Assembly: GCF_026151205.1 (NCBI RefSeq)
Contig: NC_087072.1
Span: 11,322,169-11,386,168 of the forward strand
Length of the DNA: 64,000 nucleotides
Source of the DNA: Bolinopsis microptera
Lineage: Eukaryota > Ctenophora > Tentaculata > Lobata > Bolinopsidae
Direction: 5' to 3'
How positions within the stretch are numbered: position 1 is the first letter of the stretch; the number at the start of each line of letters is the position of its first letter. The notes beneath the pieces were generated by a model that was not told the DNA's origin, ran no database searches, and saw nothing but the letters and a program-made list of their open reading frames with translations. A program made the position numbers and the translations under genes. Of the stretch, positions 1 to 35,940 are shown one piece after another.

Positions 1-261
1 GATGATCAATATTTTAGGTCTGTCGCAAATTTAGAAGATCGTGATCAGACCGTGTATTTCACTTGCAAAATTAACACGGTTAAAAATTTTCACGAAATAA
101 GTCTCTATTTACTGCATTTAACAAAATAAATTAATACAGGGACTACAAAAAATAATTTTTCAACAGTCATGGAAACAATGCTTCTGGCCGTTCGTGAGTC
201 GACTCAAGAACTGTGAATAACTGACTTCGTGGAGGAAGCATTAAACTGGAATCAATTCCAG
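1..261. other. 5' flank of the first gene, possible further exon
   Basis: An open stretch after a TTTTAG acceptor at about 18-81 would encode an acidic/polar peptide (it begins SVANLEDRDQ) and could be an earlier exon of the DUF6589-like gene, but its donor (GTTAAA) is weak. An ATG at 169 followed by a possible donor (CGTGAGTC) does not join the next exon in phase. The true start of the gene is not resolved and may lie left of the window. Confidence 0.3.
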
Positions 262-3200
262 GGTTTTGACGTTAGCGCACCCGAAAATGCGATGGTACGA
301 CTTTCAACACCTCCACTAATGACAACCAAATCTAAGGAGCCTAGACGGTTATCCAAAGTAAGCTTAGATATCTATATATAAGTTACGTTTAAACCCACAT
401 TTTTACCGTTACGATTACATATGACTAATAAGTTCATGCGCAGAGTCATCAAGTTTTCTACTAATCGTAATTACAGGGTTTTGACGTCAGTACACCCGAA
501 GATGTGGTAGAGCTTTTCACACCTCCACCAATCACAAACAAGCATGAGAAGCCAAGACGGTCATTAAAAGTAAGTTAGTGGCTCAAGTTATACTATTATT
601 ATATTATAGTTTAAGTCTAAAATGTTTTACATTGAACTTTTTACAGGCCAGCTTGAAATAGGGTTCAATGGGGTTAAATCATTACGCTCATGTAATTTTT
701 ACACAATAGCTTTTTTTAAATGTTAAAGTAAAAATTATTACGAAGGGGATGGATTGACAACAAGTGATTGCGTTATAACTGCAGTTTTAAGAAACTGCAG
801 TTAGAGGTAGTGGCTGATGCACATGTATTTATATATGTGCATCAGCCACTACCTCTAACTGCAGTTTCTTAAAACTGAGCTCAATTATTGTTCACCCTAG
901 GACGACGTAGACGTCGAATTATTACAAGCTGGAGCCAACAATAAAACGGACTCACCAGAAATCACGGTCCGGGATAACCACCCGGAAGATGATATTGAAA
1001 TAGGCTCACCAGAAATCACGGTCCGGGATAACCACCCGGAAGATGATATTGAAATAAGCTCACCAGAAATCACGGTCCGGGATAACCTCCCGGAAGATGA
1101 TATTGAAATAAGCTCACCAGAAATCACGGTCCGGGTTAACCTCCCGGAAGATGACCAACCTGGGACTGCTGCTTCACAAGGTAAGAATCTATTTTAAATA
1201 CAAAATCGCAGCCGATACTTGAATCGTGTGTTGCACTTAAAAGTATTCAAGCAAATTGAGACGAGTTTTAAAATTTGTTTGGCATACGATAAAATATTAT
1301 TCTGATTGATTCATTGACGAATAACGAGTTAACGAATACCATGACCAGAGGGAACTGCCACGAAGAGTGTTAAGAAGACAATTAGGAAACGTAGTTCCGT
1401 AGATGGGAATCGACATTGTAAATTGTGTGATCAAGATCTGTCTCTTCCACAATCCAGTTACGTCGCTGTGTACAGTGATTCTTCGAAAAACACGTCAGCT
1501 CTTTCTAAAACAACTTTTGAGAGTATAGTCTCCATTCTGAAGGGAAACTTTCCCGGTGAAAAGATAATTCTCTGTAAAAAAGATTACAGGGCCATAAATA
1601 CACTCCGTTCTAAAAATTTCAAGGTGAAATCATGTTGATGATATATTGATATACTATATTTCGTAAAACATAAAGTATGCAATGTTTAATTTGTAAGTAT
1701 ACATTCCTAAACGTCAACTATTCAACTTCAATAGAAGAAGTATCTCGGTATATATTTGGGAACGCTATCTAGAGTTTAGGTTCAATCCTGTTCAAAAATT
1801 TGCGTTCTTGATTCATTAAACCAAATTGTCAGGTCAATGAGCAATTAAAAGAGTTGACAGACAAATTGGGAGGCTTTGACTGCAGTCCTATGAAAAGGTC
1901 AAGAGCAGAATATGTAGGGGATCAAGAAACGAGACTCAAAATATTTACGGTATGGATTAATAAATGATCAATCAGCTTAAAAATCCAGCCACGTGGCCAT
2001 TAATTATGGTTCATCTAACAAGTAGTACGCAAACCTAATGTGAAAACAGTTATTTGTAATTAGTGAGATGTTTATATGAAATTTAAAATAATAGCTGGTG
2101 GAATACTGAATTTTCGCTTATTTCAGAGCACTTTTACCATGACAGATGAACAGGAGAAAGAACATGTAAGTCAAGAAGAGTTGCTTCGTACGACGGTACG
2201 ACTGCTGAAAGGCGAAAGGAAATGCTTGGTTTCAAAGCTTCGTCCGTCGGTTCTAAGAGGAACAAAATCGGGTAAATTTTAATGAGTTTTAATACGTTTA
2301 GCCTTATACTGGTTAACCTTTGTATATAAAGGATTGGAGGGTGGGGGGGGGGGGGGGTCCTATGAGTATTTTGAGAGTCCCGACGAAAATGGCCAAATTC
2401 TCATTCTCAAAATTATTCTCGAGTTTCTTTGGAGAACAGTTTACAAGAGAGGCGAAAAACTTATTCTCAAGAATTGACTTTGAGTATTTTTCGACCACAT
2501 TACACTGATATGAAGAATGATTTGGTATATCGCTATTAAAGTGGACAATTTTTGAGAAAATGAGAAATCCATGGTCATAATCTCAGATTCAAAAATTCCC
2601 AAAATAATTATGGCACGCCGCAACGGCATTTCAGCATGTGTAGTGTGTACCTAAGATATTTCCAGGATCTAAATGCAATCACCGAGATATAATATCGACT
2701 ACACCTCTGGACATAACGAAAGACATGATAATGAAGGATTGTGATATACTATACACATTTATGAAGGTACTCCTAAAAAAAGAAATGGATTCTGACGACG
2801 ACACAGATCGAAGGGTCGGTATTGCTGCATCGGTGTTGCTGAATTTATCGAATCAAGACCTAAACATATACGCTGAAAAAATAGCTGTTATGCTAGTTGC
2901 CTCTGGTAAATAATAATTGATTTAATGAGAAATTGTGATATAAATGGGATTTCATTTAATAAATTGCTTAAAACATAATATGATTAAAATGAATATTCGC
3001 CAAATACGGAAGTAGAACACCAGTTCAATTTATCTCCCCCTCCCTCCCTTATAGATGTTTAAATAGCATCTTGGCCTCAGTTTCAAAGTTTAAAATAGGC
3101 CTAACAAAATCTATATAACAGGTATTTCAAATAGTGTCTTGGATATACTCGGCTCAATGGGGATCACTTGCTGTAGAAAAACTGCAAAAGATATTATCAA

Positions 3201-6200
3201 AGCAGCAGGAAATGACTGTAGCATGCTTATAAAGAAAGTAGTTGAGTTTGGAGAAGCCACACATGACGACGCAGTAGAGGATGCGCTGACTCTTTTAGAT
3301 GAACTTATGGATGAGCAATACTTATACATGGGAAGAAACAATCTTCCACACAGAATGATTTATAACGGTAAATTTGTTCACAGTAATCTCTTACTGTGAA
3401 ATATAAAACAAGTTAAGACTTCTCAAGACTTCAGTCAAGACTTCCCAATTTAATCATAAAAGCAAGTAAAACCATTTCAGAGACTGGAGGAGTTAGTATA
3501 GTATATGAGCAGGAAGCTGAGACGTTGGCCAACACAACGAACCCTCAACAGCCAGCTGTAGACTTGATTGGCGATAACTTCAACCGGGAAATAGGAAATG
3601 CTCGATGGGGAAAAAATGAGTCAATCGATGTATTCCACATAGCAGGAATATGCCGTCAAGTTAGAGCACCCACAAATCTATCACGTACCGATCCAGAAAT
3701 ACAACTTGACCAAATGGAAGGTGGGTACAATTTTGCACCCCAAGTCTATTTATACCGTACAAATAGTTATATTAATAGTTAATAGTTAATAGTAATATGT
3801 TTACAGTATGCACTGAAGGGGTATCCTAGGAAGTTTCTTGAACTTTTAACAAGTACCCCTCCTCATTTAACCCTCAATTAAGTTTCCTATCATTCGGCTG
3901 AGTCGACCGAGGAGATTACATAGATCCAATGGATCCTTAGCTACTCCCTAGACTAGGTGACACTGGGATTCGAACCCTGAACCTTCTGCGCAGAAGGCGG
4001 ATGCTCTAACCACTAGGCCACCTAGTACACCTAATACAAGCTGGCAGTATGAATTGGAATTATGCACGACATTAAGGATTGAAATTGTAGTTTTTATTTT
4101 TGGTCCGGACATTTGATATTATATAATACTAGAAAACCCGTGGTCACAGGGAGGAACCTAATAGTATTCTTTGGAAGTCACTTTTAATCGTGTCAAAAAG
4201 TATTCATCCCCACCGAAGATACAGCCAAATAAAATGTTGCTCGTACTAAACACAGCGTAATATCAACAAAACCGATTAAAATGACATCAAAACAATCGTT
4301 GCACGTGCACGTGCGTGTAACAATCCTCGTTACTATGGTTATTATGCAACTACCTATTTCTTATCTATTTGCACGTGGGCGGTCGTACAGTGTACATACA
4401 ACAAAAAGAATTTTTTGAATTATAGTAGAGATTACCGTTCAATGCTTAAAGTTAAACACAAACCAAAGTTCAGTAAAACCCCAATTTACCGCGGAGCTAC
4501 TTGAGAAAGAAACTTCCGCGGTAAATCTCGGTTTGCCATAAATCTAGATCGGGATCGGGGTTCTACAGTATTTAATAGTTTAAAACGGTAGAGAATTTTT
4601 TTCTAGATTACAATATTTGTTTATCATTTCAGTGAAACATCTCTGTCCATCTTCTAGCGACCTAAACAAGTTTTCAGAGCAAGCAGTGGATCTAGTCATG
4701 ATAGTCTTATCACGTAGAGATGATGATCTTTCGTTTTGCCGAGGGTGGATAGATCCCCATATAAAGCATCCACTAAGGAAGACTATGGACCAAGCGACTG
4801 TGACTGTCCCGTTGGGAATCATTCCTGAAAATCAGACAAGTACCGCTGCTAACGTCCGAATATTGAACGAATGTGAGCAATACATGAACAAGAAGAACGT
4901 GAGTAAATTGTCAATTCTCCTTGCCTCTATGAGTAGCGTGTCTTATGTATCAAATATTTGGCATGTACTGTCCATGGATAATCAAATAAACCACATAACA
5001 GTATAAGTGCAGGATGAAATACAAATTGAATGTCATAATATCTAAATAATGGGTTTCAGCTGACTTTTTTTTACGGTGACTACCTAACACGTGAAAGACT
5101 TCAAGGCGCAAAAATAAGTCTTTCGAGTGTGCCGGACTTACTCTTACACAGTACGGTAGAGGCTGACGGCAATTTTCATACCCTGATTGTGTTGTTGACG
5201 GTAAGAACGAAGATAAATACCTTATCTCCTAATACATATATATATGAATAAACTATGTCACATAATTTCGTAACTGTTTAGCACTTGTATTTATCAGGGA
5301 AGAGCTGTTTCCCTATGTATCCCCCCCCCCCCCCCCCCCCCCCATTTATCCATTAGCAATTAGCATACACGTAACAATTACAAATTTCAGAGTATTATGA
5401 AGCTTATTCATTCGGAAGAAAGTAAGCTTGAAAAGGCAACATTCACCGGGACATGTTACTCTTTAGGCAACTCAAAGGCTGCAACAACTAATGTAAAGGC
5501 GAGCTACATAAAAACCAGAAATGCTTTTATGATATACTTTGAAGCGGTGCTTCATTCAGCGTGGTTGAAGATGCTCGAAGACTACCCTATCATAAAAGAA
5601 GAGTTGGAGTCGGCAAGAAAAACTGGCAGGATCGCCTTTCTCGAAAGATTTAGGTACGAGAAATAGATACAAAAGTTATACACAACACAATCCGGTAGAA
5701 TTTGTAATATTATGCGTAAACTGGACTCCCGAAATTCTAAGCACATGGATGTTTCACTAAATGTTATACAATCGCTATCTCAGATCAGATGTGACCAAAT
5801 TGTTAAAACGCTTGTTACAATTTGATGAGAAACATTGGATTGATAATCGGAAACCGCTTCCTTGCAGATTTTGTCAGGTAACCAACCCCATATTGCACAT
5901 TTTTCATACCTAATTGTTAACTGCAAAAAGGTTTATCGTGTTCCAATTTTTGGGTTTACAATGCTTGAACAACAATAGGATAAGTTTACAAATAGAGGGC
6001 TGATAAGGAGACACTTAATGGAGAAACACTGCGATACTGAAAAAGCAGCAGAGACAATCATTAAAGGAGATTTTGGACATCTATTTGAGGATGATGAAAT
6101 GTGAGTTTATACTTGATATAGTCTTGAATCATATTGATATAGTCTTGAATCATATTGATAGGTATATACCTCGAATAAAGTTGTTTGCTAGCCGCTTACT

Positions 6201-9200
6201 TGAAACTAACTAACTATGATAGATTAAGTATTTGAACATTTTATCTCGACATACACTGAATATCGTCACACATGTTGTATCGCTCTGAATAACGGTGTGA
6301 TTACCATATACGGCTGAATACTTAACTTATCACTGTGCATTGTGTGCGATACAATCGCTACCGGTATCATAGATGAAGCATATTATAATGAACAGAAGTC
6401 TGTTTAGAGGCAACGATTAGATATAAAATGTATGCGAGGCTGTGTCTGCATTAAGCCGAATGAAACATCAAATAGGCGATAACAAGCTATATCATTAGAA
6501 AATGTACGTGTAAGTTTGTCATCCAGACAATGCTGAAAAAGTAGATTTTACTTATTATAAAATCAATGCCCGCACCATAACCAACGATATTGTGACTGGC
6601 ATACACAAATTATTATCGTAGTAATGTGCAGTTTCCATAACAACCGAATTTATATCGGAAGATCAATTAGCAAAGGTATAATATCAGAGCATCAAAATAT
6701 GGCAATTTCACAGCAACACATAAACACATTCCAGCGATCGCATTATGTGCGTGTGTAAGAATGTAGGTCGCTGTAGTATAGGACAGGAGTCGCTGCGTGT
6801 GGGCAGTTACTTTTGGGCCACCCTGTATTGTAAAACATTAGGTTTACATTCATATAATAATAGCTATAAAGGGTGGCCTATAATAATTAACTGCACCTTA
6901 GCAGCTCGCTTCATTTGTCTCAGAGTTACACAAACATTTGAGAGATTATAGAACTGCAGCTGTGTCAAGCTAAGATTTTCTAACGTTTCGTACAAACATT
7001 TATCTATCACAAAGGGTATGGCACGCCATGGCATGATAGTAATGAATATCAATATTCACCGTTTTAGGTTCAACTATGGACGATTAGTGATCTACTTGGG
7101 ACTACTTTTCACCAATTTAGAGAAATCGATTTCATATGGGGATGGTGAACGAGAAACACTTTGTCTCAAGCTGACGATACCCATCTTTAGACGAATGGGT
7201 AGGACTAAATATGCCCACTCTATGGTCAGGCGTGTTGTGATGCTAAAAAGTTTGCTCTCTGAAGCAGAAGCATACGAGTACCGTCACAATACAACAGTTG
7301 GTGTGTGATAATTTTCTTTATCTTTTTAGCTCACACTGTTGATTATAAGTGTACAATGTACAATGTACGTACATCTCACACTGTTGATTATAAGTGTACA
7401 ATGTACATCCATCTCACACTGTTGATTATAAGTGTACAATGTACAATGTACGTACATCTCACACTGTTGATTATAAGTGTACAATGTACAATGTACATCC
7501 ATCTCACACTGTTGATTATAAGTGTACAATGTACGTACAGCTCACACTGTTGATTATAAGTGTACAATGTACAATGTACATACAGCTCACACTGTTGATT
7601 ATAAGTGTACAATGTACAATGTACATACATCTCACACTGTTGATTATAAGTGTACAATGTACAATGTGCATACATCTCACACTGTTGATTATAAGTGTAC
7701 AATGTACAATGTACATACATCTCACACTGTTGAATATAAGTGTACAATGTACAATGTACGTACAGCCCACACTGTTGATTATAAGTGTAAAATGTACATA
7801 CATCTCACACTGTTGATCATAAGTGTACAATGTACAATGTACATACAGCTCACACTGTTGATTATAAGTGTACAATGTACAATGTACATATAGCTCACAC
7901 TGTTGATTATAAGTGTACAATGTACGTACAGCTCACACTGTTGATTATAAGTGTACAATGTACGTACAGCTCACACTATTGATTATAAGTGTACAATGTA
8001 CAATGTACATACAGCTCACACTGTTGATCATAAGTGTACAATGTACAATGTACATACAGCTCACACTGTTGATTATAAGTGTACAATGTACAATGTACAT
8101 ACAGCTCACACTGTTGATTATAAGTGTACAATGTACATACAGCTCACGCTGTTGATTATAAGTGTACAATGTACAATGTACACCAGAACAAAATTATTTT
8201 TCACTTCTTCATTAGTTCAGTCCTTATAACTTAAAATTCGATGTCAATTATTATCGTCGCTCATATAAAGTATTTTAGGGCTAGGAGTAGGACCGGGCAA
8301 GCGAAAATCAGCAGATTATTACATGGAGCTTCTTAATAACATTCTTTCTACGATGATGGGCAAGAATTTTACCCTAGAAACGATGTCAACCACGGCTAAT
8401 GCTTTGGCATATCTGTATACCATCAAAAAGACTGTAGAAGACGAAATAAGAGGTAAAGTTTAATCCACTGCTCAATATAAATTGTTGTTAAATTTATATC
8501 AATATGCATGATTGATTAGAATATAATGTCGCTAGTGTTAAACGTATTTCAGGAATCAAAAGAAAAAAAAACAAAAAGGCTGAGATCACTGGAACCTATG
8601 AAAAGGTTCTTGGTCAAGTGAAATGGGGAGCATTTTTCAAATTCACACCAGATAGAAAATCTCCGGCGGGCTTATCTATCAAGAAAAACATACATTATGA
8701 TAATAAGAGCAAAAAGACCTTGACAAACTGGCTGGGCGACAGTGAGTTTTCAACTATTTACCTTTAATTTAATAAAAGTTGTATTGCTGGACGTTTTCAG
8801 TACCATAAACAACAAACATGAAACATGGGTTTGCTTTTTTAGAAAGAAAAATTGGTTATGGGATGTATTAGTAATTCGGTATCGGAGGACGTGCAGTATA
8901 AAATATAAATTATAAATGTACAGTATTCATTATGATCGCACTTTTAACAATGCTTTAGACAGATAATGGTCGTTTAGTTGCAATAGGAATATTAGGTACT
9001 TAACATTGAAGCTGGTAACTTTTAATGAACAATGAACATGGCGAGAAATCTGCATCAAAAATGGTAACTGTAAGTAAAATTTGAGAGGAAGGTAGATTTA
9101 AGAACTAGTAACTTTCGGTGAACATGGCGAGTAAGGTACATTGAAACTGAGATCTTGCAGTTTAATGGTATCTTCGTATAGTACCAGAATACACATTTCG

Positions 9201-10022
9201 TATTTAAAATTAACATTTCGAAATTAATATTCTAATCTAATGGTGAAGCATTGAGCTAAGTGGTGAATGATTTTTATGGTGAATAGAGTTAAATTTCACC
9301 ATTTTTCACTATCAGAATCAGGCCTCCCACTCTAAAATTCCTAAAATATATAATAAACCAATAGGAAATCAATACAGAATGTTCACAGCAGTTGATAACA
9401 CACTTAGTTATAATATGTAATATTTTGATTTTAAAACATTGAACAAATTAAGATTAAAGATGGCAAGTTTTTAAAGTTATTTCGGATATCTCCAGTCCAT
9501 TGGGATTGCTCAAAACATAAATGAGGGGACTGAGGGCCACAACTGTGATTTTAAGCAAGAAAACTGCGAAATTTTTTGTGGAAATTCAAGGTTTTCAAGG
9601 TTTTTGATTTAAAATAGCAGAATTCAAGGTTTAGAAGGTTTTCGAGGATGGCTGGGAGGCTTGATTGGAATCAACCCCCACCCCCCCCCCCCCCTTCCCC
9701 GTTCAGTATTTATGCCCGTTGTTCCTAATTAGGTGGCAAGTAATGGGAAAATAAAACACAATGTTCATTTTTCAACGATAATATCAGAACCTTTTCAGGC
9801 CTCACACGATACCAGAAAACCTACAGTAAATTCAAAACCTGTGCTGAAATTAACCTGATCGACCCAATTGACGACCCAGATGAGGATGTTGATGAGGTAG
9901 TTTCATCACCACCGGAGGGTGAAGAAGATAAAAGCGATGATGATGATGACAATTTAGAAGAGAGGGAGGAGTTTTTGGTTCAGTTTGCAGATTTTGTCAG
10001 CAGTGTTAGCGAAACTGGTTAA
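262..10022 (+). CDS. DUF6589-domain protein, 18-exon gene (5' end uncertain)
   Basis: Exons read by eye, all phase-compatible with GT-AG borders: 262-357, 477-569, 901-1180, 1349-1623, 1833-1949, 2127-2271, 2666-2905, 3122-3367, 3481-3720, 4633-4898, 5060-5200, 5391-5653, 5784-5877, 5979-6100, 7068-7300, 8279-8452, 8553-8741, 9799-10022 (stop TAA). They give about 1,145 codons without a stop. The N-terminal part is acidic with an 18-residue coding repeat and a possible Cys pair (CKLCDQ). The body matches the DUF6589 family pattern: a GDYLTRERLQGAK block at 5060-5200, a C2H2 finger (C-x2-C-x12-H-x4-H) split across exons 5784-5877 and 5979-6100, and the late block ending YRHNTTV followed by a Gly/Lys turn and ADYYMELLNN. 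The C-terminus is strongly acidic. DUF6589 proteins are multicopy in cnidarians and fungi; a transposon origin is my inference. Function is unknown. It is followed after 363 bp by the F-like gene on the same strand. Confidence 0.75.
783..876. repeat. Perfect 42-bp inverted repeat (hairpin) in an intron
   Basis: The arms at 783-824 and 835-876 are exact reverse complements separated by a 10-base AT-rich loop. It lies in the intron before the exon starting at 901. A transcript would fold into a 42-bp stem. It could be a tiny foldback element or a small-RNA precursor; the sequence alone does not decide. Confidence 0.85.
951..1155 (+). repeat. 54-bp coding minisatellite, about 3.8 copies
   Basis: Copies start at 951, 1005, 1059 and 1113. 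Each encodes 18 residues of the form SPEITVRDNHPEDDIEI plus one, in frame with the surrounding exon (901-1180). The period is a multiple of three, so copy-number change keeps the frame. Copies differ by only a few bases, which implies recent expansion. Confidence 0.85.
3800..4035 (-). mobile_element. tRNA-derived SINE (tRNA-like head on - strand)
   Basis: Read on the - strand, about 4026-3958 resembles a tRNA: an A-box-like TGGCCTAGTGG and a perfect B-box GGTTCGAATCC at the right spacing, with matching GGTG/CACC ends. The anticodon arm is a CCTTCTGCGCAGAAGG palindrome with a poor 7-base loop and the T-stem has a mismatch, so it is probably not a working tRNA. The body continues toward about 3800. 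It lies in the intron 3721-4632 of the DUF6589-like gene. The 3' boundary is a guess. Confidence 0.55.
5321..5343. repeat. Poly-C run
   Basis: A homopolymer C tract of about 22 bases sits in the intron 5201-5390 of the DUF6589-like gene. Similar G or C runs occur near 2342, 9680, 12233, 19791, 20127, 36770 and 61767. Some mark transposon ends (19791 and 20152); this one has no visible partner. Confidence 0.8.
7329..8190. repeat. 38/45-bp tandem satellite, about 20 copies
   Basis: Tandem units of the form CTCACACTGTTGATTATAAG followed by TGTACAATGTACA and TACAG/TACAT. Units with one TGTACAATG block are about 38 bp and those with two are about 45 bp, so a 7-9 bp subrepeat varies inside the unit. 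The array fills most of the intron 7301-8278 of the DUF6589-like gene. Long open frames here on both strands are by-products of the repeat. Confidence 0.9.
8742..9798. other. Large intron of the DUF6589-like gene, no gene seen
   Basis: AT-rich sequence between the GTGAGT donor at 8742 and the CTTTTCAG acceptor ending at 9798. It contains a C-run near 9680 and short AAGGTTTTC repeats around 9590-9640. I see no coding signal. Confidence 0.6.
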
Positions 10023-10384
10023 ATCAAAACATTTCGTAGAATTATATATATAATGTATTGCTGAAAAAAAATTGCCGTCAAAAACTTGGTTCCACGAACA
10101 CCTAAGTAGCTTTTTCAATGGGTACGGCGTTTTATTAATAGCGGGCAATTTGCCTTTAAACATTTTAAATCTCTTATAGTTGTAGAGCTTTTTTAATTAA
10201 AGAGAGGCTGGACTTATAGGACCCGAAAATAAAAAGAGAATCGCTTGACAAGTACATTTAATTATGACAAAAATCAACTCTGTTAAGGCTCAAAAATTAA
10301 CTATTGTTCTTCAATTAACTATGTATCTAAACTATAATAATTGCTTTTGAGACAGGACATAAATTATTCATATTCTTAGCTAAG

Positions 10385-13300
10385 ATGAACGGGTTCTATA
10401 CATTTCAATGGCTCTGCATCGTTCTGATCGGATCAGTGCCTCTGATTGACGACCAACATGGCTTAGTTCTTTTGGTTGATAAACCAGTTTCAAGTAAGAT
10501 CAATTGTTCAAGAGGTTCATTCTTTCACAAGTCTTGAAGCTTTTGAAGAGCTACCTTTTAATTATCTTCTGGAAACTTCACGTTGCAGCCTAGCTGGAGA
10601 TGTTTCAAGTTTAATTTTGACATTTTCATAGCCTCATGTGAGAAATATCTGTTATAAGATCCGAATGGAGTCCAACATTTACAACCTCTTAATGCAGATA
10701 ACGGGCTCTGCTTGTTTTCCACATGAAAAAAGGTGTTACGATGAAATGCGTTGTAACGGCAACAAAAATGTATGTTTCATAGTGATATTGTATAGAGGGT
10801 ACACTTTGAAACGTACGGACATTTATAAGTTTTTATAGTTAACTATTTCAGTGTTTACTGAAGTGGATATGGTTGTTATCGAGGTAACCAAGACACGGCC
10901 TGTAGTAAAGATTCCCGAACTGATTCAACAGTTGAAGACAGCAGCTGACGAAAATGGTGATCCAAAAGAATTTGAAGACATCTACATGTAAGATTAAACT
11001 AATTATTGATTTAATATCACTTAAAACTGCAGTGTGCCATTATGGATTACGGAACAAACCAAAGTGTTGTCGTCATTGAAACATTTCGTGTAAAACACAC
11101 TTCTATCAGATGCTACGATAGCTGGAACGAAACCGTAGTAGAGTTGGAGACCAGGCTCAATTATTTAGAAACTTCGGTCAGCGACGATTATGAAAGCGAC
11201 TTAACTCTCCGTATGTTACAAAAATAATGAATTACTGTTAAATGATTGTGGTTCAAAGCAATGTTCATAAAATTATAGATAGATGCATAATCTCTTTAGA
11301 AATGAAAGCAGAACCATAACTTGGCATTTGCTGCAGTCTAAGTCTGACAAATAATCCAGCCAATTATCCAAAAAATCGGTCCGCTTGAAGTTGCATTTCA
11401 TAAACTACTGGGGCGTCATATTTATTTCCTTCATTACCCTTCATTAAGGAAATTTTGGTAAATAACTACCAAATCATTTATATTGTCTCTGTAATTGTTG
11501 CCATATTCGCAACGAAAATATTACGTACAATTTTGCTCATGGAGTTCTTTTACCTAGTATCCACTATTCATCAGATATTGAAATATATCTTTTGTATAAA
11601 GTTAGTCTCAATCAAAAATATTAAAGTTTGATCGTATTTACTATTTAATTTTGGGTAAAAGCGAATTTGGGCAAAAGTGTATGCCCAAATATGGGCATAT
11701 GGTTTAAGCTCATAACTCAGCCAATTGTTGACCAAACTGGACGTAAATTCATGTACTAGTCCAAAAACAGGCTTATCTTGCAAATCTAAGCAGAGAATAT
11801 AGTTCGAATAATTTTAGGTATATTAAAGTATATAAATTACTTTTAGAATTATAATCTGTTTGGCTGTCGACTGAACTATATTAATAATATGGTTCATATT
11901 AATGTAAGGGTTAATCGATCTTCTTACATTTCAGAGGATGTCATGAATCCTAGCGAACCTAAGAGATCGGTGAAAAAAAGGTCTATACTAACGTCAATAA
12001 AAGACGGTATCGTAAACGAAGTGAACTCGTTGTTATTTACGGATAAAGGTAAATTGATAATTTTTAAAGTCGAAACTTCACATCATATTTGATGATAATG
12101 AGTAATGACAGATGGCGCCACTGCTGTTAACTGTTATGCGATTTTATTATATCTATAAGTAAAACGTTTTTTAAATTTGTTCCTAACATTTAAAGGTTTT
12201 AGCGTAGGGCAGTGGGGTGGGCGACAATTGACCCCCCCCCCCCCCCGACAATTGACCCCCCCGACAATTAACCCCCGTCATTGACCCCCGACAATTGAAC
12301 CCAGTGTAATTACATAGGGGGTCAATTTTCGGGGGGTCAATTGTCGGGGGGTCAATTGTCGGGGGTCAATTGTCGGGAGGTCAATTGTCGGGGGTCAATT
12401 GTCGTACTAAGCCCTAGATTTCGCGACAATTGACCCCAGTGTAATTACATAGGGGGTCAATTGTCGGGGGGTCAATTGTCGGGGGGTCAATTATCGTACT
12501 AAACCCTAGATTTCGCGACAATTGACCCCAGTGTAATTACATAGGGGGTCAATTGTCGGGGGGGGGGGGTCAATTGTCGGGGGGTCAATTGTCGCGGTAC
12601 CGGGCAGTGACCGAATCTGCCCATTTTCCCACGGTTTGTCGACTATTGTCACATATTGTCATATCTCGTCATATATTGTGAAATCTTGAATTTGTGTCGT
12701 ATTGTCACATATTGTCATATCTCGTCATATATTGTGAAATCTTGAATTTGTGTCGTATTGTCAAATCTTGTCGTATATTGTTGAAGTAAATTGTCGTATA
12801 TTGTCACATATTGTCATATATTGTCAAATATTGTCTGAATATTTTGTCATGTATTGTCATAATATATTGTCATATCTAGTCATATATTGTCATATATTGT
12901 CAAATCTTGTCATAATACAATGTCATAATATATTTCATTATATATTGTCATAATATTTTGTCATATATTGGCACATATTGTCGAAAAACTGTCATGGCAC
13001 TCTCGGCTCCTGCCCAGTGTAGATACTAAAATAGACTTTCGATGTTGACGAGAAATATAGAAATATTCCCAATAGTATCATAAATAAAGCCACTAATACT
13101 ATGTGTTGACATGGATAGGACATCAGTGCCTCAAAATATTCTAAAATGGTCGGCGTTTAATTCTTGACACCATCTAAGAAGCCCACTGGTGACCGGCGGT
13201 ATCACGCGCGAGGGTTCTTGTTACTGGTTATAAGTAATTATTTTTATTTCAGAACAAGATCAAAGATCAGATGCAAGAAAATTAATAAATGGACAAGTGC

Positions 13301-15059
13301 CTCAAGTTAGAAAGGGTTTTAAAGGACAGGTAAATAAATATAAAAGTCTATAGCGCAATTATCCATCAAGATTCAAGTTAAATATTGACGAAATACATAT
13401 AATGAATAATTTGATAAGCAAAAATGACGATGTTGATTTTACAAGGTGAAGATTGATGATACGGTCTTACATCAAATAACTACAGTAAAAAACTTTGTGG
13501 ACGAGTTAGCCAGAGTAGAAACATGCGAAATAGACGTTTTAAAGTTTCAAGCTAAAAAGGTAAATATATTCACAGTTCCGCTAATAATACCTTATTACAG
13601 TCCTAACAGGAAGAACTTTTATCATCCTAAACAAGTTATGAGCAAAATTAGTCTAATTTTTGCCGTGGATTAATGAACGTTTCAAATGTATTTTTGGGAT
13701 ATTAAGAGATAGGGTTACAACCTGGAGTAAACCAAAAATAATTCATACATTGCACATTCGTATCTAGGTAAGTAGGTATAAAGAAGTTGGTGTACGTATG
13801 TGCTCAGTGCTGTAGAGTGCAGATGTTAAGGAATGAATATCAAGAAATAAATAAATAAAAAGGAATTGTACCAATTAAAGATAAATGTTAGGTCGGTCAT
13901 AGACTGGAACCCAGTCATGATATGGTTATGACATGGTTTTGGCATGGTTATGACATGGTTATGACACGGTTATACCATTGGGAATCTTATCTATTCTATG
14001 ACAAAATTGTTAAACTCAAATTAATTTTTTACAGTAATATGTTCTCAGGGATTAAACATCGAACAGTACGGGAGAGACTTGGAGAGTTTGGCCAATGTTG
14101 ACGCTGCTGGTATGCTTCATCGTCTACCTCGTAGCCTAACGAACATCAAAACTCTTGAAGCGATAGCCAGTCTTCCTAGGTTTAATGGCACTATCTACGA
14201 GACTGAGCCCAGGTTACTAAAGTCGTATATGCAGCTCCATCTGGAAAAGCTACATCTTGATGATGCGGGGGCGACGTTTTATTATACTCTAACGTACCCA
14301 GTGCTAACAAGATCATCGCTGATCCCAACTTTCCGGGTGGAACAAACTGGGTTTATTGTTAACGGCCGTCATATGATGCTAGACTTGCCAAATCAGTTAG
14401 CACTCATTGATGGTCGTTACCATGAATATGATTGTGGGCAAAAGATATTCGATCTCTGTCGAATTAACACGACGACCATTAAGCCGTCGTGTCTGCAGGG
14501 ATCCTTGACTGATGAATTGTGTTCCACGATTCCCTCAGATTGTGGAGAGATGTGCAGCATCAACACAAGGAGTGGATTGTTGTTGACCACAAGTCATGCT
14601 ATCCATGCCTTTTTAGGTAGAGATAGCAAAGACAAACAGATGGTGACTGTTTCACCTGTCGCCATGTCTGCACATTTCCTACCGTGGGTGAATTACTCTT
14701 CCGTTGTTGTGATGGGAAATGGACGGGTGATTGAACCTCCGGTGGACCAGGACTACGAGTTCAACATACTGATAAACTCAGATTATGTTAACTACACAAC
14801 CCCCATCTTTAACAACGTGATTAGTGTTGATGAATCTGGATTGGAAGTATTGCAAGCGCAAATAGAGCAACATAAGAAAATGATAGCTAACATAACACTA
14901 CTCTATGAAACGGCAAAAACTGAAAGGAGTAATGATGGTGACTCTCTTTGGTCGAACTTATCGTTGTATCTGCATTTCGGACAAACAATATTTTTGCTCT
15001 ATTTACTGGCACAATTTATTAATTGTGTAAGAAATATGAAACTTGGATCCGTTGACTAA
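10385..15059 (+). CDS. F-type envelope/fusion glycoprotein-like gene with introns
   Basis: A spliced gene for a class I-type viral fusion glycoprotein relative (baculovirus F / errantivirus Env group). The ATG at 10385 opens an exon with a hydrophobic signal-peptide-like start (10385-10493). Further candidate exons are 10632-10769, 10852-10988, about 11034-11209, 11935-12047, 13253-13330, 13446-13559 and a long last exon of about 14035-15059. A dibasic furin-like site (RSVKKR) in 11935-12047 is followed by a small hydrophobic/helical stretch where F proteins have the fusion peptide. The 13446-13559 exon looks like a helical segment. The last exon has a dozen scattered cysteines, several N-glycosylation sequons and a C-terminal membrane segment followed by a short tail. 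The first junction (10493 to 10632) does not fit in phase as I read it, so the 5' half is uncertain. Introns are unexpected for a retroviral-type env copy. It lies between the DUF6589-like and helicase genes, all on the same strand. Confidence 0.65.
11600..11800. repeat. Dispersed repeat, inverted copy near 37050
   Basis: The block around 11640-11720 with TATGCCCAAATATGGGCATA and CTCATAACTCAG occurs again in inverted orientation at about 37050-37110. It lies in an intron of the F-like gene. Family and ends are unknown. Confidence 0.55.
12225..12600. repeat. GTCAATTGTCGGGGG repeat cluster with internal inversion
   Basis: C-rich copies (CGACAATTGACCCCC) at 12225-12300 are followed by G-rich reverse-complement copies up to 12600, together with a CCAGTGTAATTACATAGGGG block repeated three times. 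The arrangement is partly palindromic, as in a foldback element. It lies inside an intron of the F-like gene. Confidence 0.75.
12640..12985. repeat. ATTGTCATAT-type short tandem repeat
   Basis: Degenerate units of about 9-12 bases (ATTGTCATAT, ATCTTGTCAT and similar), plus a duplicated block of about 65 bp near 12650-12760. An apparent 67-residue frame here is repeat-derived. Intron of the F-like gene. Confidence 0.75.
13560..14034. repeat. Intron of F-like gene with 11-bp ATGACATGGTT repeat
   Basis: At about 13915-13975 there are several degenerate copies of an 11-bp unit (TTATGACATGG). Its reverse complement (CCATGTCATAA) makes up the cores of the foldback elements at 23.6-25.4 kb. The rest of the intron shows nothing recognisable. 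Confidence 0.65.
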
Positions 15060-15084
15060 TTTCAACAATCAACATGCTGTAAAC

Positions 15085-15782
15085 TACCTTAAGAACGACA
15101 AATTTAGTCTATCATAAATTTAGTCAAACTTTTGACTAAAATTGTTGAAAACCAAATTTCATTTGACTAAATTTTTCGGCGACTAATATTGAACTTGAAG
15201 TAGACCAACATTTTAGTAGAGTATATATGAATTAAATTTTATTGTGCTTACATTCTTTATCATATGTTTATGACAAACAGTTAAATATCGCTAACTGTAC
15301 ACAGGTCCCTACTGCGTGTAATAAGAAATTGTATGCTATGATATGTAACTAATTTATGTAATGTTGGCTCGTCGTTGGAATGTTCCCAGATCGAGAATAT
15401 TCCTCCTTACCAAAATAATGACGTATAGTGTAAGTACCAAAATACGGGCGTATAGTTACAGGATCAAGAGGTTAATAATTTGTCCATGTGACCGTTTGTC
15501 GCGCAGTGTGCAGGTGGGCCCATGGGAAATTTCTAATACATGTGTTCCGTTGTCTGTACTAGTTCACTATAAAGTATGACTTTAAATGGGAAATTGGAAA
15601 AAAAACTAAGTAATAATGTAAAATCAAATAAATGGAATGGAAAATGATCTCGAAAAGTCAAAAAATTCGACTAAAATTGTTGTAGACTAAAAATTTGCGA
15701 AATTTGTGCCCAAAATTATGGTAACTAAAATTATAGTAACCAAATTTATTGTGGCCCACCCAAATTTGTTGGCCCTAAGGTA
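15085..15782. mobile_element. Non-autonomous TA-flanked TIR element (pogo/Tigger-like MITE)
   Basis: Left end TACCTTAAGAACGACAAATTT and right end (reverse complement) TACCTTAGGGCCAACAAATTT form imperfect inverted repeats flanked by TA. The interior is rich in GACTAAAATT motifs in both orientations. The ends resemble those of the element at 49668-50938, which carries a pogo-type transposase fragment. It inserted 26 bp after the stop of the F-like gene. A 72-codon frame inside (15361-15579) is not convincing. Confidence 0.65.
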
Positions 15783-16086
15783 GCTATTGATTTTATATTG
15801 CTTATTCACTGTTTTATGACATAGACCGTTTCCCTTTCACATAATGTCATTGTAATTTTATATTCTTATATTTCAATTAACTAAGCTAATTTAACTGTTT
15901 GAAGAGATAAAAGTATATTAAATCAATATGAAAATTGTTGAATTGGTTAGTTACATGAATTTAGATAGCAAATGATATGATTTGATTACACAATATCGAT
16001 ATACAGAATAACATCGAGATGATCAAAATAATAATGACATTGATTATGATAATAACGCAATATACTAAATAGGGTGATATTACAAT

Positions 16087-19000
16087 ATGCAACCGGACAA
16101 ATGGCCATTCACAGTTGAAGGTAAGACTGTAGAAAAAACAAATTTACATCACTCTTAGTGATTGCTACGTCCTTGTCTCATATTCTTAACACAATCTTGA
16201 ACCGCATTTGAGTAATTAAATTTTTTAACTGTTTCAAAAACCGTCGCCTTTTCAGAATGCAAAGCAGACATAATGGGAGCTACGGGATACAGTATGACGG
16301 AGGACCAGGAAAGGGCCATCAGTGCCATTCTTAATGGGTTAGACGTGGTGGTATGCTTACCAACAGGAGCTGGAAAGTCGCTTATCTTCCAAGCCCTAGC
16401 GCTTAGTTGCAAGATAAGAAAACTTGACTATGTGGTCATCATCGTGACACCACTAAAATCTATCTCGTTTACTCATATACATAGTTTTAAAAAGGTTAGT
16501 ACCATAGGATTTACGTAGCGTTGAGATCCTAAGGCACAATTTTATAGGAGAGCAGAAAGCCATTAACCCTCTTCCTGTAACTACTACAAGTTAAGCACAA
16601 GGGTCATAATATGAAATAATGTTTCCACTTTTCAGTTGAACGTGGGCTGCTTAGATGCCAATACAGACTCTATCGAGTTATTTTCTTCCACTGAATATAA
16701 TGCTGTTGTAGCTAACCCGGAGGTGTTCTTCAGTCAGAAGGGGGAACAAGTTCGTAATATAAAAAAATACTTATTGATTTATTGAGTTACACTCCAATAA
16801 GGTCCTTGTTCTTGTATAATTAAAGGATATTGAAGTGAGCCCCTAAAATACCGTATTTGATTTCAAGTTAAAGATGAAAAATGTATCATCAGGTATTAAG
16901 AGAAATACAGGGAAGGTGCCGTTTATTTGTAATAGACGAGGCGCACTGCCTAAAGACATGGGGAGAAGGGGCAACAAAACGAGATAAACCCTTCAGAAAG
17001 CGATTTAAGGAATTGGCGAACGTCATAGCAAAATTAAAGGTTAACGTTATGCAATATTGATGTAAATAAATAGGGACATGAAACTTGGTATCCTTAAAAT
17101 ATCGTGATGTAGAATATTAACAACTGCTCCTTTATAAATGTCTTAATCATCTTTCAAAAATGTCGCAATGTATAATTGAATCCTTCGGCTTCCTGTAATT
17201 GGCTGGTTACACTTGTGTAACAATGTGGCTGTTGGAATAAGAGATTACGTGGTACACCCTGTGTGGTCTATGTAATTTCAAACTAATCACAAACAACGGC
17301 TAATTTAATCGATATTCCAATTAAAAAGGGTACAATTTCAGAATAGGCCGAGAATATTATGTATGTCCGCTACGATGCGAGAAGTTACGGATAAATGTAC
17401 CAGACAGAGTCTCGGGATTTCTTCTTTTTTGGAGATAAAGAGGAACCCCATAAACCCACGTATAAGCTTTATTAACGCCAAGGGAAAACTCAATGTTAAT
17501 AACCTTGCCCAAATGCTAGAGAAAGGAAAACAATGCCCGAGAATTCTCATATTTGAGAAAAGTTTAGTGGATTGTGGCCTTCTTTATCTCTCGATTAAAA
17601 AGGTATCTCGTGTTTGTAAAATTCCTGTAATGTATCACGAGTGCGCTGTTATCTATGTTTGCAACATAATTTTGGGCAAATGTTATTTTCCACTAGCAGT
17701 CGGTCAGTTGAAAAAAAGTGCGACTTTTTACAATAATTTCGTTCAATAGACCGTGTGCTTTTCAACACAGAACAGAATGCAATATAGTATTAAAAATAAA
17801 TACTATATAACTACAAAAAATAGGCTTTGAAGAGTGATAAGTTGACTATAAACCTTGTAACTTTTATGAAAAGATGTATGATACATGGTATATGCGACAG
17901 GCACTAGAAGAGAAGGGGCGCACAACAGCAGGTCTGGAAGTTTATCACTCACAGATACCAGCAAAAAAACAAGAGATGATTTCAAGAAGCTTAATGCTGG
18001 AGGACGGCGATGTAAGAATAGTCATAGCTACTAGCGCCTTGTCAATGGGTTTCGACGCTGTGGGTAAGCAATGTTAATTTAATGACTTGAACGATTTTTT
18101 TTAAATTTCGTCTGTGTCAACGGAGTTTGGATCTCCACGATCAGTTCCCTGATAAATGTAACTATAACATTCGTATTATATCAATATGTATACATAAGAT
18201 TGCGGACCAATATAAATAACGAATAAATTTTCAGGTATATGCTATGTTGTACACTTACAAATGCCTAGACGATTGGAAGACTTTGTCCAAATGACTGGTA
18301 GATGTGGTCGAAAAGACGGCATAAAAGCTATCTGCCTCCTGTTCATTGACATTAAACCCAAGGATCTAGAAGACTTCTGTAATGATTACAGGCTACAGAA
18401 TGAAGAATGCAGACATTCGAACTTGGTTAAACGTTTTACAGGTAATTTTGTGGCTTTCTTTAATCTTATGAGATTTTTAAAATATTGAATATTGTAGGGT
18501 CAGTGAATACTTGAGTTGGTACAAATACCAATATGCAATAACCAATGTACGAGCTGCCATTGCCCAGCCTCGTGGAATAGATTTTATATGCCAAATGCAA
18601 TACGAAGTGTGTCGATAAAATAATACTTTATATATCATTTATTCAGTTATTCCTATTATTTTATTATATTTAAAATTCACGAACTTCGCGGAGAAAATTA
18701 ACAAAGTTGTTAACTTTAAGACAGTGAAAACCAGAAAAGTGAAATACAAATTCGCATATCATCAGGAGTTGTGGTGGCGAACAACTTGACTGTTAATGAT
18801 ACATGCTGCGACATTTGTGGTCCTACCCAGGACGAAGTTTTGATAAATCTTATTTCCCTTGAGGAGGAGGGAAACGTCGCTCAATCTTTAGCAGGTAAGT
18901 TTAAGGCATATGTTTTCTAAAACGGAAGAAAGACTGATTGTTTTAGTTCCATCCAGTTTAACCCAGTTGTCAATCGACAAAAGATTTACGAATGTCACTA

Positions 19001-19349
19001 GAACCTGGTGTCCCTATGTAGACGGGATTATTTGTGAATTATTTTTATGACTATGATCATTTCCTTAGACAGACATCCGGTAACAACTGTCAAAAGGGAC
19101 AATTTTGAAAAAGCGTTGAAAGACCTCATGGATCAAATCAGCTTTGGATCAATGCCGTTTCTCGATAATGACTTGACAGAGGGTATTATCAAATTGATTG
19201 TACAGGAGTGCCACAAAATCTGCTGTCCACAAGATTTGGATGCCTTGGTGTCGGGGTTGAGTGAGTCAACTAAATTGGACATCATGGAAATCTTTTACGA
19301 TATTTTTAAATTGAAGAAGGTCGACGGGAGTTCTTATAACAGTCGCTAA
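16087..19349 (+). CDS. RecQ-like superfamily 2 DNA helicase, 9 exons
   Basis: Exons 16087-16120, 16256-16494, 16636-16749, 16893-17039, 17342-17602, 17874-18063, 18235-18441, 18766-18894 and 19069-19349 join in phase to about 533 codons with no stop. Motifs in order: Walker A PTGAGKS with an upstream MTEDQERAI Q-motif region, DEAH (FVIDEAHC), motif III MSATM, motif V region IVIATSALSMGFD, motif VI QMTGRCGRKDG, and a RecQ-type zinc cluster (ECRH then TCCDIC). The protein is expected to unwind DNA 3' to 5' using ATP. It ends soon after the zinc region without a recognisable HRDC domain, so it is shorter than cellular BLM/WRN types and similar to transposon- or lineage-expanded RecQ-like proteins. 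The start ATG has a donor 34 bp downstream. It is the third gene of the + strand cassette. Confidence 0.8.
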
Positions 19350-19790
19350 TACAGTTACTTTTAGTCTGGGCTGTAAGGGGAATCTGCTGGCAATGAACAT
19401 TCAAATTTCACACTAGAAGTTATCTTCGAACTACGGAGAAGTGTCTCCATAATTACATAATTATCAGTTAGCAAAATTGGATTCAGCAGTTGGCCACAAT
19501 AAGTTTTTTTCAATCAATTTTTTCGCTAAGAAATCCATTTGAACTTTCCGTGCCAACGAACCTTAAAAATCGACTCTTTCGTACATCACTGATAATCCCA
19601 ACGCATGCAATGACCGTATTCAATTCAAATTTAGAGATAATGTGTGTGGATTATTAGTATAATGATTGATGGCTCGTATGTCGCCTCTGCATTTGACATA
19701 ATATTAAAGATTAATTCATTGTTCTATATGTATTTGCGTTTATCATTATTTGAGAAATCGTGTTTAAATTCAGTTGATTATAATGCTATC
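19350..19790. other. Downstream flank of the helicase gene
   Basis: No coding signal. It should contain the 3' UTR of the helicase gene and, if the cassette is a mobile element, perhaps its right end. I could not recognise an inverted repeat because the left end is not available. Confidence 0.5.
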
Positions 19791-20152
19791 GGGGGGGGGG
19801 GGGGGGGGGACACGCACCCCCTTTTTCCGGCTATTGTGGTACTAACTGTTGAGAAATCACAGTACTAACTGTGTCTTGGTATATAACATAGGATACCCAC
19901 CCATAAACAGCTCATTAAACATTGGAAAATGGGCAAATTATACCCACTATTTAGTAGGGGTTGTGTTTTCAATGTAGTTCGAATTAGATAAAAAGTTAAA
20001 TATACAGGAAAAAAATTCTAAAAAACCCAAAAAAAAACTCTAAACCACGTTCCCAAAATTGAAATTTGTGGTAAAATGGGTTTTTTGGGGTTGGAAAATG
20101 TACCATATACTAACTGGAAGATATGACCCCCCCCCCCCCCCCCCCCCCCCCG
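19791..20152. mobile_element. MITE with G-run/C-run ends and 8-bp target duplication
   Basis: The element begins with about 19 G at 19791 and ends with about 25 C then G at 20152. Identical ATGCTATC copies flank it at 19783-19790 and 20153-20160. The interior has GGTACTAACTGT and short A-rich repeats. The 8-bp duplication suits a hAT-type transposase. A similar GGTACTAACTGTT motif occurs near 54056 next to a C-rich stretch. Confidence 0.7.
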
Positions 20153-34228: not shown

Positions 34229-34595
34229 TTGAGCTATACTTATCGTGAGTAATAAATGAGATATGGGCAGTATCGAGATAGCCCGACCACGGTCCGCGGA
34301 CCACGGTCCGCGGACCAGTGGTCCGCGGACCACTGTCTACCAGATCATATTACTGTATAATAACAGTATCCCCTGAATCAAGCAACAGGTGTTTGTGAAT
34401 AGTTGATTGGTTACCAGATCATATGAATGGTATGTATGGTATCTTGGATGCAATTAGTTACGACTAGCATAATTAATTGTAGCGTAGTAAATTACTGGAT
34501 CAAACTATTGATTACGATTCAAATGTGGTCTCTCGGATATAATTAGTTACGAATAATATTGATTGCTCAATGAAATAAATGATTACGATTAAAAT

Positions 34596-34612
34596 GTGGT
34601 ATATAAGTCGTT
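34596..34612 (+). promoter_or_regulatory. TATA-like box before the Merlin transposase
   Basis: GTATATAAG lies about 75 bp before the ATG at 34675, a plausible core promoter for the transposase gene. This is by motif only. Confidence 0.35.
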
Positions 34613-34674
34613 CGTTTTTGGTGAAGTATTATCAGTTGCCATCATCAACAACAACAACTATTCCAATTCCTGAC

Positions 34675-35289
34675 ATGGTACTCTTCTGTCTAATGGACGA
34701 AATTAATGGACCCACCGCCTCCCTAGAGAATGCTCGAGACTTCCTATTCCAGAAAAACCTCCTAAAGAGCTCCATGTCCTGTCCTGGGTGTAATGCATCT
34801 ATGTCCCTGGTTCCCTGCTCGTCCTCGAAGTCTCCAGATGGACTGATATGGCGCTGCTCCCCCTGCAAGAAGTACAAGAATATTAGAACAGACAGCATCC
34901 TCTCTGGACAGAAGCTCGCTCTCAAGACCTTCATACAACTGCTGTTCTGTTTGAGTATAAAAGGACTAGCTGGCATTGCGGTATCACAGATGACTGGACT
35001 TTCTGAAAACGCGGTGTCTGACTGGAAGATATTCATCCACACTCGAATCGCTGATTGGCTGCTTGCAAACCCTTGTCCTCTTGGTGGTCCTGGAGTAATT
35101 GTCGAATTAGACGAAGCTAAGTTCGGAAAGAGAAAATACAACAAAGGTGGATACAGAGAGGGTATGTGGGTACTTGGTGGAGTTGACCGAAACACAGGAC
35201 AATGCTTCCTGTTCCCTTGTCCGAACAACAAACGTTGGGAGTTGATGCTCAGGACAAAGCTTTGTTATCTTTTTTGTAGTAGAATGTAG
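34675..35289 (+). CDS. Truncated Merlin (ISXO2/IS1595-like) transposase
   Basis: The likely start is the ATG at 34675 (MVLFCLMDEI) rather than the in-frame ATG at 34579, because a TATA-like box lies between them. Parts seen: a zinc ribbon (CPGCNASM then WRCSPCKKYKNIR), a helical region (FIQLLFCLSIKGLAGIAVSQ), and the start of the DDE nuclease core with the first catalytic Asp in VELDEAKFGKRKYNKG, followed by GMWVLGGVDRNTGQCFLFP. After PNNKR the family similarity stops and a short unrelated tail ends at 35289. The second Asp and the last acidic residue are missing, so the protein should be inactive although the element's ends are intact. Confidence 0.85.
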   Translation: MVLFCLMDEINGPTASLENARDFLFQKNLLKSSMSCPGCNASMSLVPCSSSKSPDGLIWRCSPCKKYKNIRTDSILSGQKLALKTFIQLLFCLSIKGLAGIAVSQMTGLSENAVSDWKIFIHTRIADWLLANPCPLGGPGVIVELDEAKFGKRKYNKGGYREGMWVLGGVDRNTGQCFLFPCPNNKRWELMLRTKLCYLFCSRM

Positions 35290-35598
35290 GATCCCATCGA
35301 GGACTGAAGATTCTCGGTGGACATTCACAACAACGCAGTTGTTACATTTGGAGCGGACACGAGGAGCATGAGCAGAGGAGTTAGCAAGACCTCCGGCATC
35401 AGAAGATGCTACAGGGTCATGAACAGTGCATGATATACCAGCATGCCTCTTGTTGCAGAAAACACAGAAGCTTGGGTTGGCTCTGGAGACGATGAGGGTT
35501 TTACCAGCTTGAGTCCACTTGTCGAGAGGTGAGATAGGTTTGCAGATAGGGTCGCAGGGTAGGGCTGAGTTCATCCGTTTCGTTTTCTCTGAGACCAT
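35276..35598 (-). CDS. Cys-rich reading frame inside the Merlin element, function unknown
   Basis: An ATG-started frame on the - strand (MVSEKTKRMNSALP...) contains FCVFCNKRHAGISC and, later, VRSKCNNCVVVNVHRES. This pattern of CxxC pairs followed by His resembles the C-terminal cysteine-rich domains of piggyBac-type transposases, but the match is weak. The frame runs on into the antisense of the transposase, so its real 3' end is uncertain. It occupies the place where the second half of the transposase would be and may be captured sequence. Confidence 0.4.
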
Positions 35599-35940
35599 AG
35601 TTGTAGTTGTTCAAGAAGGAGTTGATGATAGAAATGATTGATGCAGTCTGATAGTAGTTATTCTTTATATATTGCATGATGTGAACTGATCTCGTAAGGT
35701 TGCTTAATCGTTTAATAAGCCTTGACACCACCGCTGATTGGAATTCGCGTGCGATGATGTGAACCCTGCTTGACTCAGGGGATGATGTGAACCCTGCTTG
35801 ATTCAGGGGATACTGTTATTATACAGTAATATGACAGTGGTCCGCGGACCACGGTCCGCAGACAGTGGTCCGCGGACCACTGGTCCGCGGACCGTGGTCC
35901 GCGGACCGTGGTCGGGCTATCTCGATACTGCCGAGATATG

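Follow-up and report, generated by a model that had tools for sequence, protein, structure and literature searches.

The 64,000-nucleotide window analysed here (G000:C1:11322169-11386168, within the 264.65 Mb assembly of the ctenophore Bolinopsis microptera) contains three genes, all on the plus strand and arranged head to tail, that code for a DUF6589 protein (D), a relative of F-type fusogens (F) and a RecQ-like helicase (R). D and R are a recurring two-gene pair of ctenophores, found in the same order and on the same strand, and we favour, with modest confidence, the reading that this recurring unit was joined long ago by an envelope-related, intron-bearing F gene, which appears to be kept by selection. 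The head-to-tail arrangement described in an initial annotation of the window was confirmed by exon phases, Pfam matches, splice sites and relatives. Its intergenic distances (363 and 1,028 bp) were each one too many, the measured gaps being 362 bp between D and F and 1027 bp between F and R, and the cnidarian host it had assumed was incorrect, as is evident from the match of the D protein to B. microptera LOC134818601.

Recurrence of the D-R pair

A census of the B. microptera genome returned 10 matches to D exon 6, 13 to D exon 10, 14 to R exon 3 and 16 to R exon 4, which were merged by hand into 15 D loci and 17 R loci, two weak D loci (37% identity) being kept. At 4 of the 15 D loci, window included (3 of 14 without it), R follows on the same strand no more than 13 kb downstream, namely in the window and at C1:7.29 Mb, C7:19.50 Mb and C11:9.67 Mb. 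When the loci were placed at random, uniformly on one line of genome length, such D-R pairs arose with a mean of 0.0056 and a maximum of 1 in 20,000 placements, none of which reached 4. The D and R exons at C7:19.50 and C1:7.29 Mb are collinear with those of the window, at 34-80% identity per exon, and the intact gaps between D and R at these two loci contain no F exon match. The C11:9.67 Mb copy is broken and consists of D exons 6-9, about 10 kb of other DNA and then R exon 4; in the 10 kb from D9 to R4, neither D10-D12 nor F nor R1-R3 was significantly matched. In a second ctenophore, the Mnemiopsis leidyi record P0006 combines PF20231 DUF6589 with subsequent weak DEAD and Helicase_C matches in one protein, which we interpret as two neighbouring genes that the gene model has probably merged, with no F part between them. 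No report of a D-R pair was found in the titles and abstract openings searched.

It might be argued that the window contains three unrelated host genes that became neighbours by chance, the D-R linkage going back to an old tandem or segmental duplication without mobility. Such a history would agree with the lack of element ends and with the edges of D copies described below, which lie in repeats, so that repeat-mediated duplication is possible, as well as with one RecQ-fragment junction situated at a run of C. However, the D-R pairs are spread over C1 (two loci), C7 and C11, the two pairs without F have diverged far from the window, and the Mnemiopsis record joins D and R as well. Hence, we regard this explanation as rather doubtful.

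Linkage of the F gene

Counting the window, close F relatives occupy four loci. R follows no more than 13 kb downstream at three of these, the window, C11:0.93 Mb and C11:0.74 Mb. The latter two are 91-97.5% alike, old and broken, with stops in R, and they match the window through the F end, the F-R gap and R at about 68-93% DNA identity. They may represent one old event copied once more; therefore, the F-R linkage is old, but not an independent proof of an element. For the F genes L010, L020 and L021, no D or R was found closer than 2.5 Mb in the census, and two loci of distant F relatives are preceded by an integrase and a second glycoprotein, not by D or R. A second full D-F-R trio was not found in the B. 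microptera genome. The initial annotation had asked whether the triple recurs in the same order, which is true for its two halves, D-R and F-R, but not for F in the two intact D-R gaps. Likewise, the initial annotation had held that the absence of F-like neighbours elsewhere would speak against an element; F stands beside R again at the two C11 loci, whereas L010, L020 and L021 are far from both partners. Several broken pieces of the F last exon are also clustered within 3 kb at C11:5120590-5123547 (L004-L007, L011-L013).

Structure and relatives of the F gene

F starts with an ATG at 10385 and, as judged by eye, a signal-peptide-like sequence; its stop codon occupies 15057-15059. Several introns interrupt the gene, and at four of these the phases agree. 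From 11033 on, the five exons join in phase, and the first two junctions are uncertain. The following parts were assigned:

10385..10493 (+), first exon with signal-peptide-like start; ATG and candidate donors, donor not certain
10852..10987 (+), second exon region; open frame, last donor out of phase, earlier donors would fit, end uncertain
11033..11210 (+), exon; phase fits the next exon
11935..12048 (+), exon with the furin-like site RSVKKR (about 11964-11981), then a segment at the fusion-peptide position; read from the sequence
13253..13329 (+), exon; phase fits, end read off the sequence
13446..13559 (+), exon with conserved Cys; donor at an intron position apparently common to the F gene L021
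14049..15059 (+), last exon with cysteine-rich region, stalk, hydrophobic anchor and short tail; based on relatives P0001-P0004 and hhalign to envelope (Env) frames

In the alignment, the acceptor side of the phase-0 intron that precedes the last exon coincides with the exon starts of L010 and L020. On the donor side there is a likeness to L021, where the distance from a conserved cysteine is likewise 12 residues; in this comparison the upstream exon of L010/L020 was not found and the next exon start of L021 was not matched. The last exon is open over 344 codons. Its database relatives P0001-P0004 show 86, 85, 81 and 50% identity and all come from ENA; this search covered proteins of up to 602 residues, and a full-length annotated F protein may exist. 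In its own genome the last exon gave 26 matches, comprising itself, decayed C11 pieces and distant open frames, the longest with 845 codons.

The assignment to the F type was obtained through these relatives. The last exon of the window had no Pfam match at the families' own cut-offs or up to E 1 and no PDB match, hence neither PF00523 nor a solved F protein was hit directly, and the wider profile A4 was also without a match in PDB. In contrast, the window group (A1) aligned with the four-sequence Env profile A3 in hhalign (probability 98.8, E 5.2e-17), A3 matched the Fusion glycoprotein F0 structure 8v5a in PDB (E 7.3e-4, over 274-638), and L022 matched PF00523 Fusion_gly with E 2.8e-5 at 23.1 bits, under the cut-off of 29.8. 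Collectively, these alignments identify the window F as a relative of class I F-type envelope genes; the proposed F-type assignment thus stands by way of its relatives, but not by any Pfam or PDB match of the window exon itself. An RxKR site is present in three long Env frames, where the next stretch is clearly hydrophobic in two and weaker in the third (mean hydropathy 1.79, 1.26 and 0.41). The 22 residues after RSVKKR in the window F have a mean hydropathy of 0.30, below the first two frames and near the third, and 5 of the 22 are charged. The furin-like site is kept, and any fusion activity of F is putative.

In the 3.5 kb upstream of three Env loci, an integrase core followed by a second, class III-like glycoprotein was found at two; the rve match exceeded the cut-off at one of them (40.6 bits) and stayed below it at the other (26.0 bits), and the third locus (L076) had no Pfam match in the two upstream frames tested. 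The integrase-bearing loci are probably Ty3-like retroelements, a label given because of the integrase domains. The row of integrase, class III-like glycoprotein and class I F-type Env is seen in L077 with L014 (C2:5048500-5055964) and in L075 with L019 (C8:10528500-10535759). The L077 glycoprotein, whose frame reaches the end of the stretch, matches BDV_G (E 4.2e-13) and Monjiviricetes_fusion (1e-11), and that of L075 matches BDV_G (1.4e-6) and herpes gB (8e-4). In one element, the N-terminal part of the F-type Env (L018:1117-3294, minus strand) contains a PAN domain (PF00024, E 1.7e-6, over the cut-off), and profile A3 also matches PAN-type micronemal proteins in PDB.

Selection on the three genes

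The ratio of nonsynonymous to synonymous substitution rates (dN/dS, NG86) was calculated for window exons against broken copies in the same genome. Values were 0.03-0.11 for D exons 6-8, 0.10-0.35 for R exons 1, 3, 4 and 5, and 0.08-0.34 over most of the F last exon, with 0.53-0.59 in its stalk/anchor part; the comparisons of D10 and D11 with L001 and of D6 with L032 were left out for saturated or very high dS, and that of D8 with L032 yielded no value. By these estimates all three genes are below 1 in the exons compared. The F last exon thereby combines an open frame, purifying selection and a place outside a retroelement, as is characteristic for domesticated envelopes; this assignment relies on broken paralogues and on a search for pol domains in which none was found among the 20 of 72 listed open reading frames (ORFs) of window 1-20000 given to Pfam.

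One could also assume that F is the remnant of a retroelement envelope, now decaying between D and R, because Env open frames next to integrase genes are among its relatives and the segment at the fusion-peptide position is not strongly hydrophobic. The lack of a pol domain among the 20 of 72 ORFs tested, the several introns, one of them apparently common to other F genes, the long open last exon with its relatives at 50 to 86% identity, and the low dN/dS over most of this exon all speak against decay, which makes this explanation highly improbable.

Ends and mobility

The likeness of two near-identical D copies (C1:16636895-16654071 and its C13 counterpart) breaks off sharply at both edges, and neither an inverted repeat nor a target duplication was detected on them. 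An abundant repeat forms their 3' edge, with 47 matches among the 40 scored of 1274 candidates, the last 60 bases often at 100%. Of the 5' edge, two parts, bases 112-200 and 62-113, are found again elsewhere, with 52 matches among the 40 scored of 454 candidates, and among these the whole 200-base edge occurs only in the two D copies. When window 1-24000 was compared with the D-R loci fetched at C7 and C1:7.29 Mb, nothing common was found beyond exons and inserted repeats. Accordingly, terminal inverted repeats and target duplications, which define DNA transposons, were not found on the two near-identical D copies, and the D-R loci fetched had no non-coding edges in common with the window. The shared ends, inverted repeats and target duplications that the initial annotation had proposed to look for were thus not found. 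One scan each of IMG/VR with F, D and R retrieved no relative, in scans from which near records may be left out.

The suggestion that all three genes are one mobile or virus-like element is thus sustained as far as the linkage is concerned, which is real, but neither joint movement of the three genes nor a virus-like nature was demonstrated; for mobility the reason is the lack of common ends, inverted repeats and target duplications. The strong form of this idea, in which the whole trio is one mobile element with a captured fusogen that passes between animals, appears unlikely. It would be in line with the recurring F-R adjacency at C11:0.93 and 0.74 Mb, with the D…R remnant at C11:9.67-9.68 Mb and with dN/dS below 1 in the compared exons of all three genes. 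On the other side, a second full trio was not found, the D-R pairs at C7 and C1:7.29 Mb have no F in between, the C11:9.67 Mb remnant shows no significant D10-D12, F or R1-R3 match in its 10 kb from D9 to R4, common ends and target duplications were not found, and the IMG/VR scans were empty.

A later insertion was recognised in the F-R gap, in agreement with the miniature inverted-repeat transposable element (MITE) noted there earlier:

about 15085-15786 (no strand assigned), MITE-like repeat, later insertion; its ends were found again at two sites within another D-R locus (L042)

The DUF6589 and RecQ-like genes

For D, the following features were assigned:

1345..1635 (+), probable N-terminal exon region; 50% identity to DNA upstream of DUF6589 at C1:16.64 Mb and C13:8.76 Mb
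2666..10022 (+), D gene body, 12 exons; phases fit, no internal stop; PF20231; NCBI model LOC134818601
2666-2905, 3122-3367, 3481-3720, 4633-4898, 5060-5200, 5391-5653 (+), exons 1-6 of the body
5784-5877, 5979-6100, 7068-7300, 8279-8452, 8553-8741, 9799-10022 (stop) (+), exons 7-12 of the body

Upstream of 2666 the support for the gene is partial and comes from the probable N-terminal exon region at 1345-1635, the two copies behind this assignment being themselves 99% alike; the start at 262 given in the initial annotation is tentative. The 12 body exons are in phase, have zero internal stops and encode 809 residues, which match PF20231 DUF6589 with E 7.3e-30 and 104.4 bits (profile 10-408 of 410), well over the gathering score of 27. 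The NCBI protein LOC134818601 isoform X2 is 95% identical over 89% of the window D. The last exon of D is 9799-10022, as this exon lies behind D at C1:16.64 Mb as well. Between the recent D copies at C1:16.64 and C13:8.76 Mb, identity is 99% over 9.4 kb. No paper on DUF6589 turned up in a literature search lacking most subscription journals. Two D introns attracted attention, one with a tRNA-like match at window 3955-4022 (-) (32.1 bits, gathering score 29), perhaps a tRNA-derived short interspersed element, and one with a long tandem repeat at about 7330-8190, judged by eye.

R was delimited as follows:

16087..19349 (+), R gene; first exon 16087-16120, next exon from 16256; DEAD domain, collinear with P0010, splice sites

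The gene starts with an ATG at 16087 and stops at 19347-19349. Where junctions were checked, between the first exon and R1 and between R2 and R3, the gene agrees with P0010, an uninterrupted relative from a JGI source. The window exon scores 46.5 bits against DEAD (cut-off 26), and the Helicase_C pieces, split by an intron, reach 19.7 and 17.8 bits (cut-off 23.5). The NCBIfam recQ cut-offs were not reached by P0010, a 253-residue fragment (69.8 vs 640.2 and 56.2 vs 219.8), nor by P0006 (51.5 vs 219.8). We use the name RecQ-like only, because in these scanned relatives the RecQ model is the best NCBIfam match of both but stays far under its cut-off. RecQ fragments occur at 8 loci with 37-39% identity to window exon R3, plus C3:14.75 Mb with 46%; for three that were fetched wider the likeness continues past the fetched stretch, so that their ends were not reached. 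Fragments of the 3' part begin inside exon R3 at C2:21.69, C5:20.5 and C1:21.69 Mb and five more loci, and three compared ones are 96.6-99.4% alike over 5 to 7 kb. Elsewhere in the window, an open frame at 34579-35289 resembles, by eye and from the sequence alone, a Merlin/ISXO2-type transposase; the reverse frame 35501-35815 next to it was found again upstream of the RecQ fragment at C5:20.5 Mb.

Possible functions and weight of the evidence

In the favoured reading, D and R might act together on DNA as proteins of an old, mostly decayed mobile element, in which D would be a nuclease- or transposase-like protein and R would unwind the DNA. F could have been recruited from a retroelement envelope and may now be a host surface glycoprotein, more likely an Env decoy, a receptor blocker or a cell-contact protein than an entry protein of virus-like particles.

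Several observations weigh against this reading. The 13 kb limit was set after the window distance of 12.7 kb was known, the other three pairs being 5.5, 7.6 and 12.3 kb apart, and in the census R is lacking near 11 of the 15 D loci. Near the recent D copies at C1:16.64 and C13:8.76 Mb no R or F match was present in the 17.5 and 16.5 kb searched. The dN/dS values rest on paralogues, not on named orthologues. AlphaFold models were of very low confidence for F (predicted local distance difference test, pLDDT, 36.7) and, from 3 sequences, for D (pLDDT 33.8), so that the RNase H-like nuclease fold raised for D in the initial annotation is hypothetical. Finally, the descent between intron-bearing F genes and Env open frames could run either way.

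A bolder proposal would be that D-R is an undescribed animal mobile unit that took up an F-type fusogen in one ctenophore lineage, as the DNA-element counterpart of envelope capture by LTR retroelements, or that F has a role when ctenophore cells fuse, as in the syncytial nerve net; we consider this quite unlikely. A syncytial nerve net has been reported for ctenophores, and in the part of that paper accessible to us the word fusogen appears in the reference list only (PMC7617566). If F is a kept envelope-related host gene, antiviral or cell-contact roles become conceivable for it, in a phylum for which such a nerve net has been reported, and if D-R is a mobile unit, DUF6589 gains a testable role.

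Comparison with known systems

Iris is an envelope-derived host gene of Drosophila, and syncytin is a further example of this kind. Like Iris, the window F is an Env-related gene that appears to have been retained by its host outside a retroelement, but it has several introns, lies between DUF6589 and RecQ-like genes and retains a furin-like site. For R, the RecQ helicases BLM and RecQ5 are the best PDB matches of the P0006 helicase part (E 7.9e-7 and 7.2e-4), whereas relatives of the window R score far below the NCBIfam recQ cut-offs.

The insect endogenous retroviruses (errantiviruses) are described as having an F-type Env (PMC12992720). Common features are the F-type Env after an integrase, as seen in relatives of the window F, and the furin-like site, while the window F differs by its introns; the likeness is one of description. 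The TelKA LTR retrotransposons of bdelloid rotifers carry a paramyxovirus-like F env related to pfam00523 (PMC5408684). This is a class I F-type glycoprotein in a retroelement, a situation apparently also found among relatives of the window F. In contrast to TelKA, the window F has no adjacent pol gene in the ORFs tested, and at the two integrase-bearing loci examined in the ctenophore F is also preceded by a class III glycoprotein.

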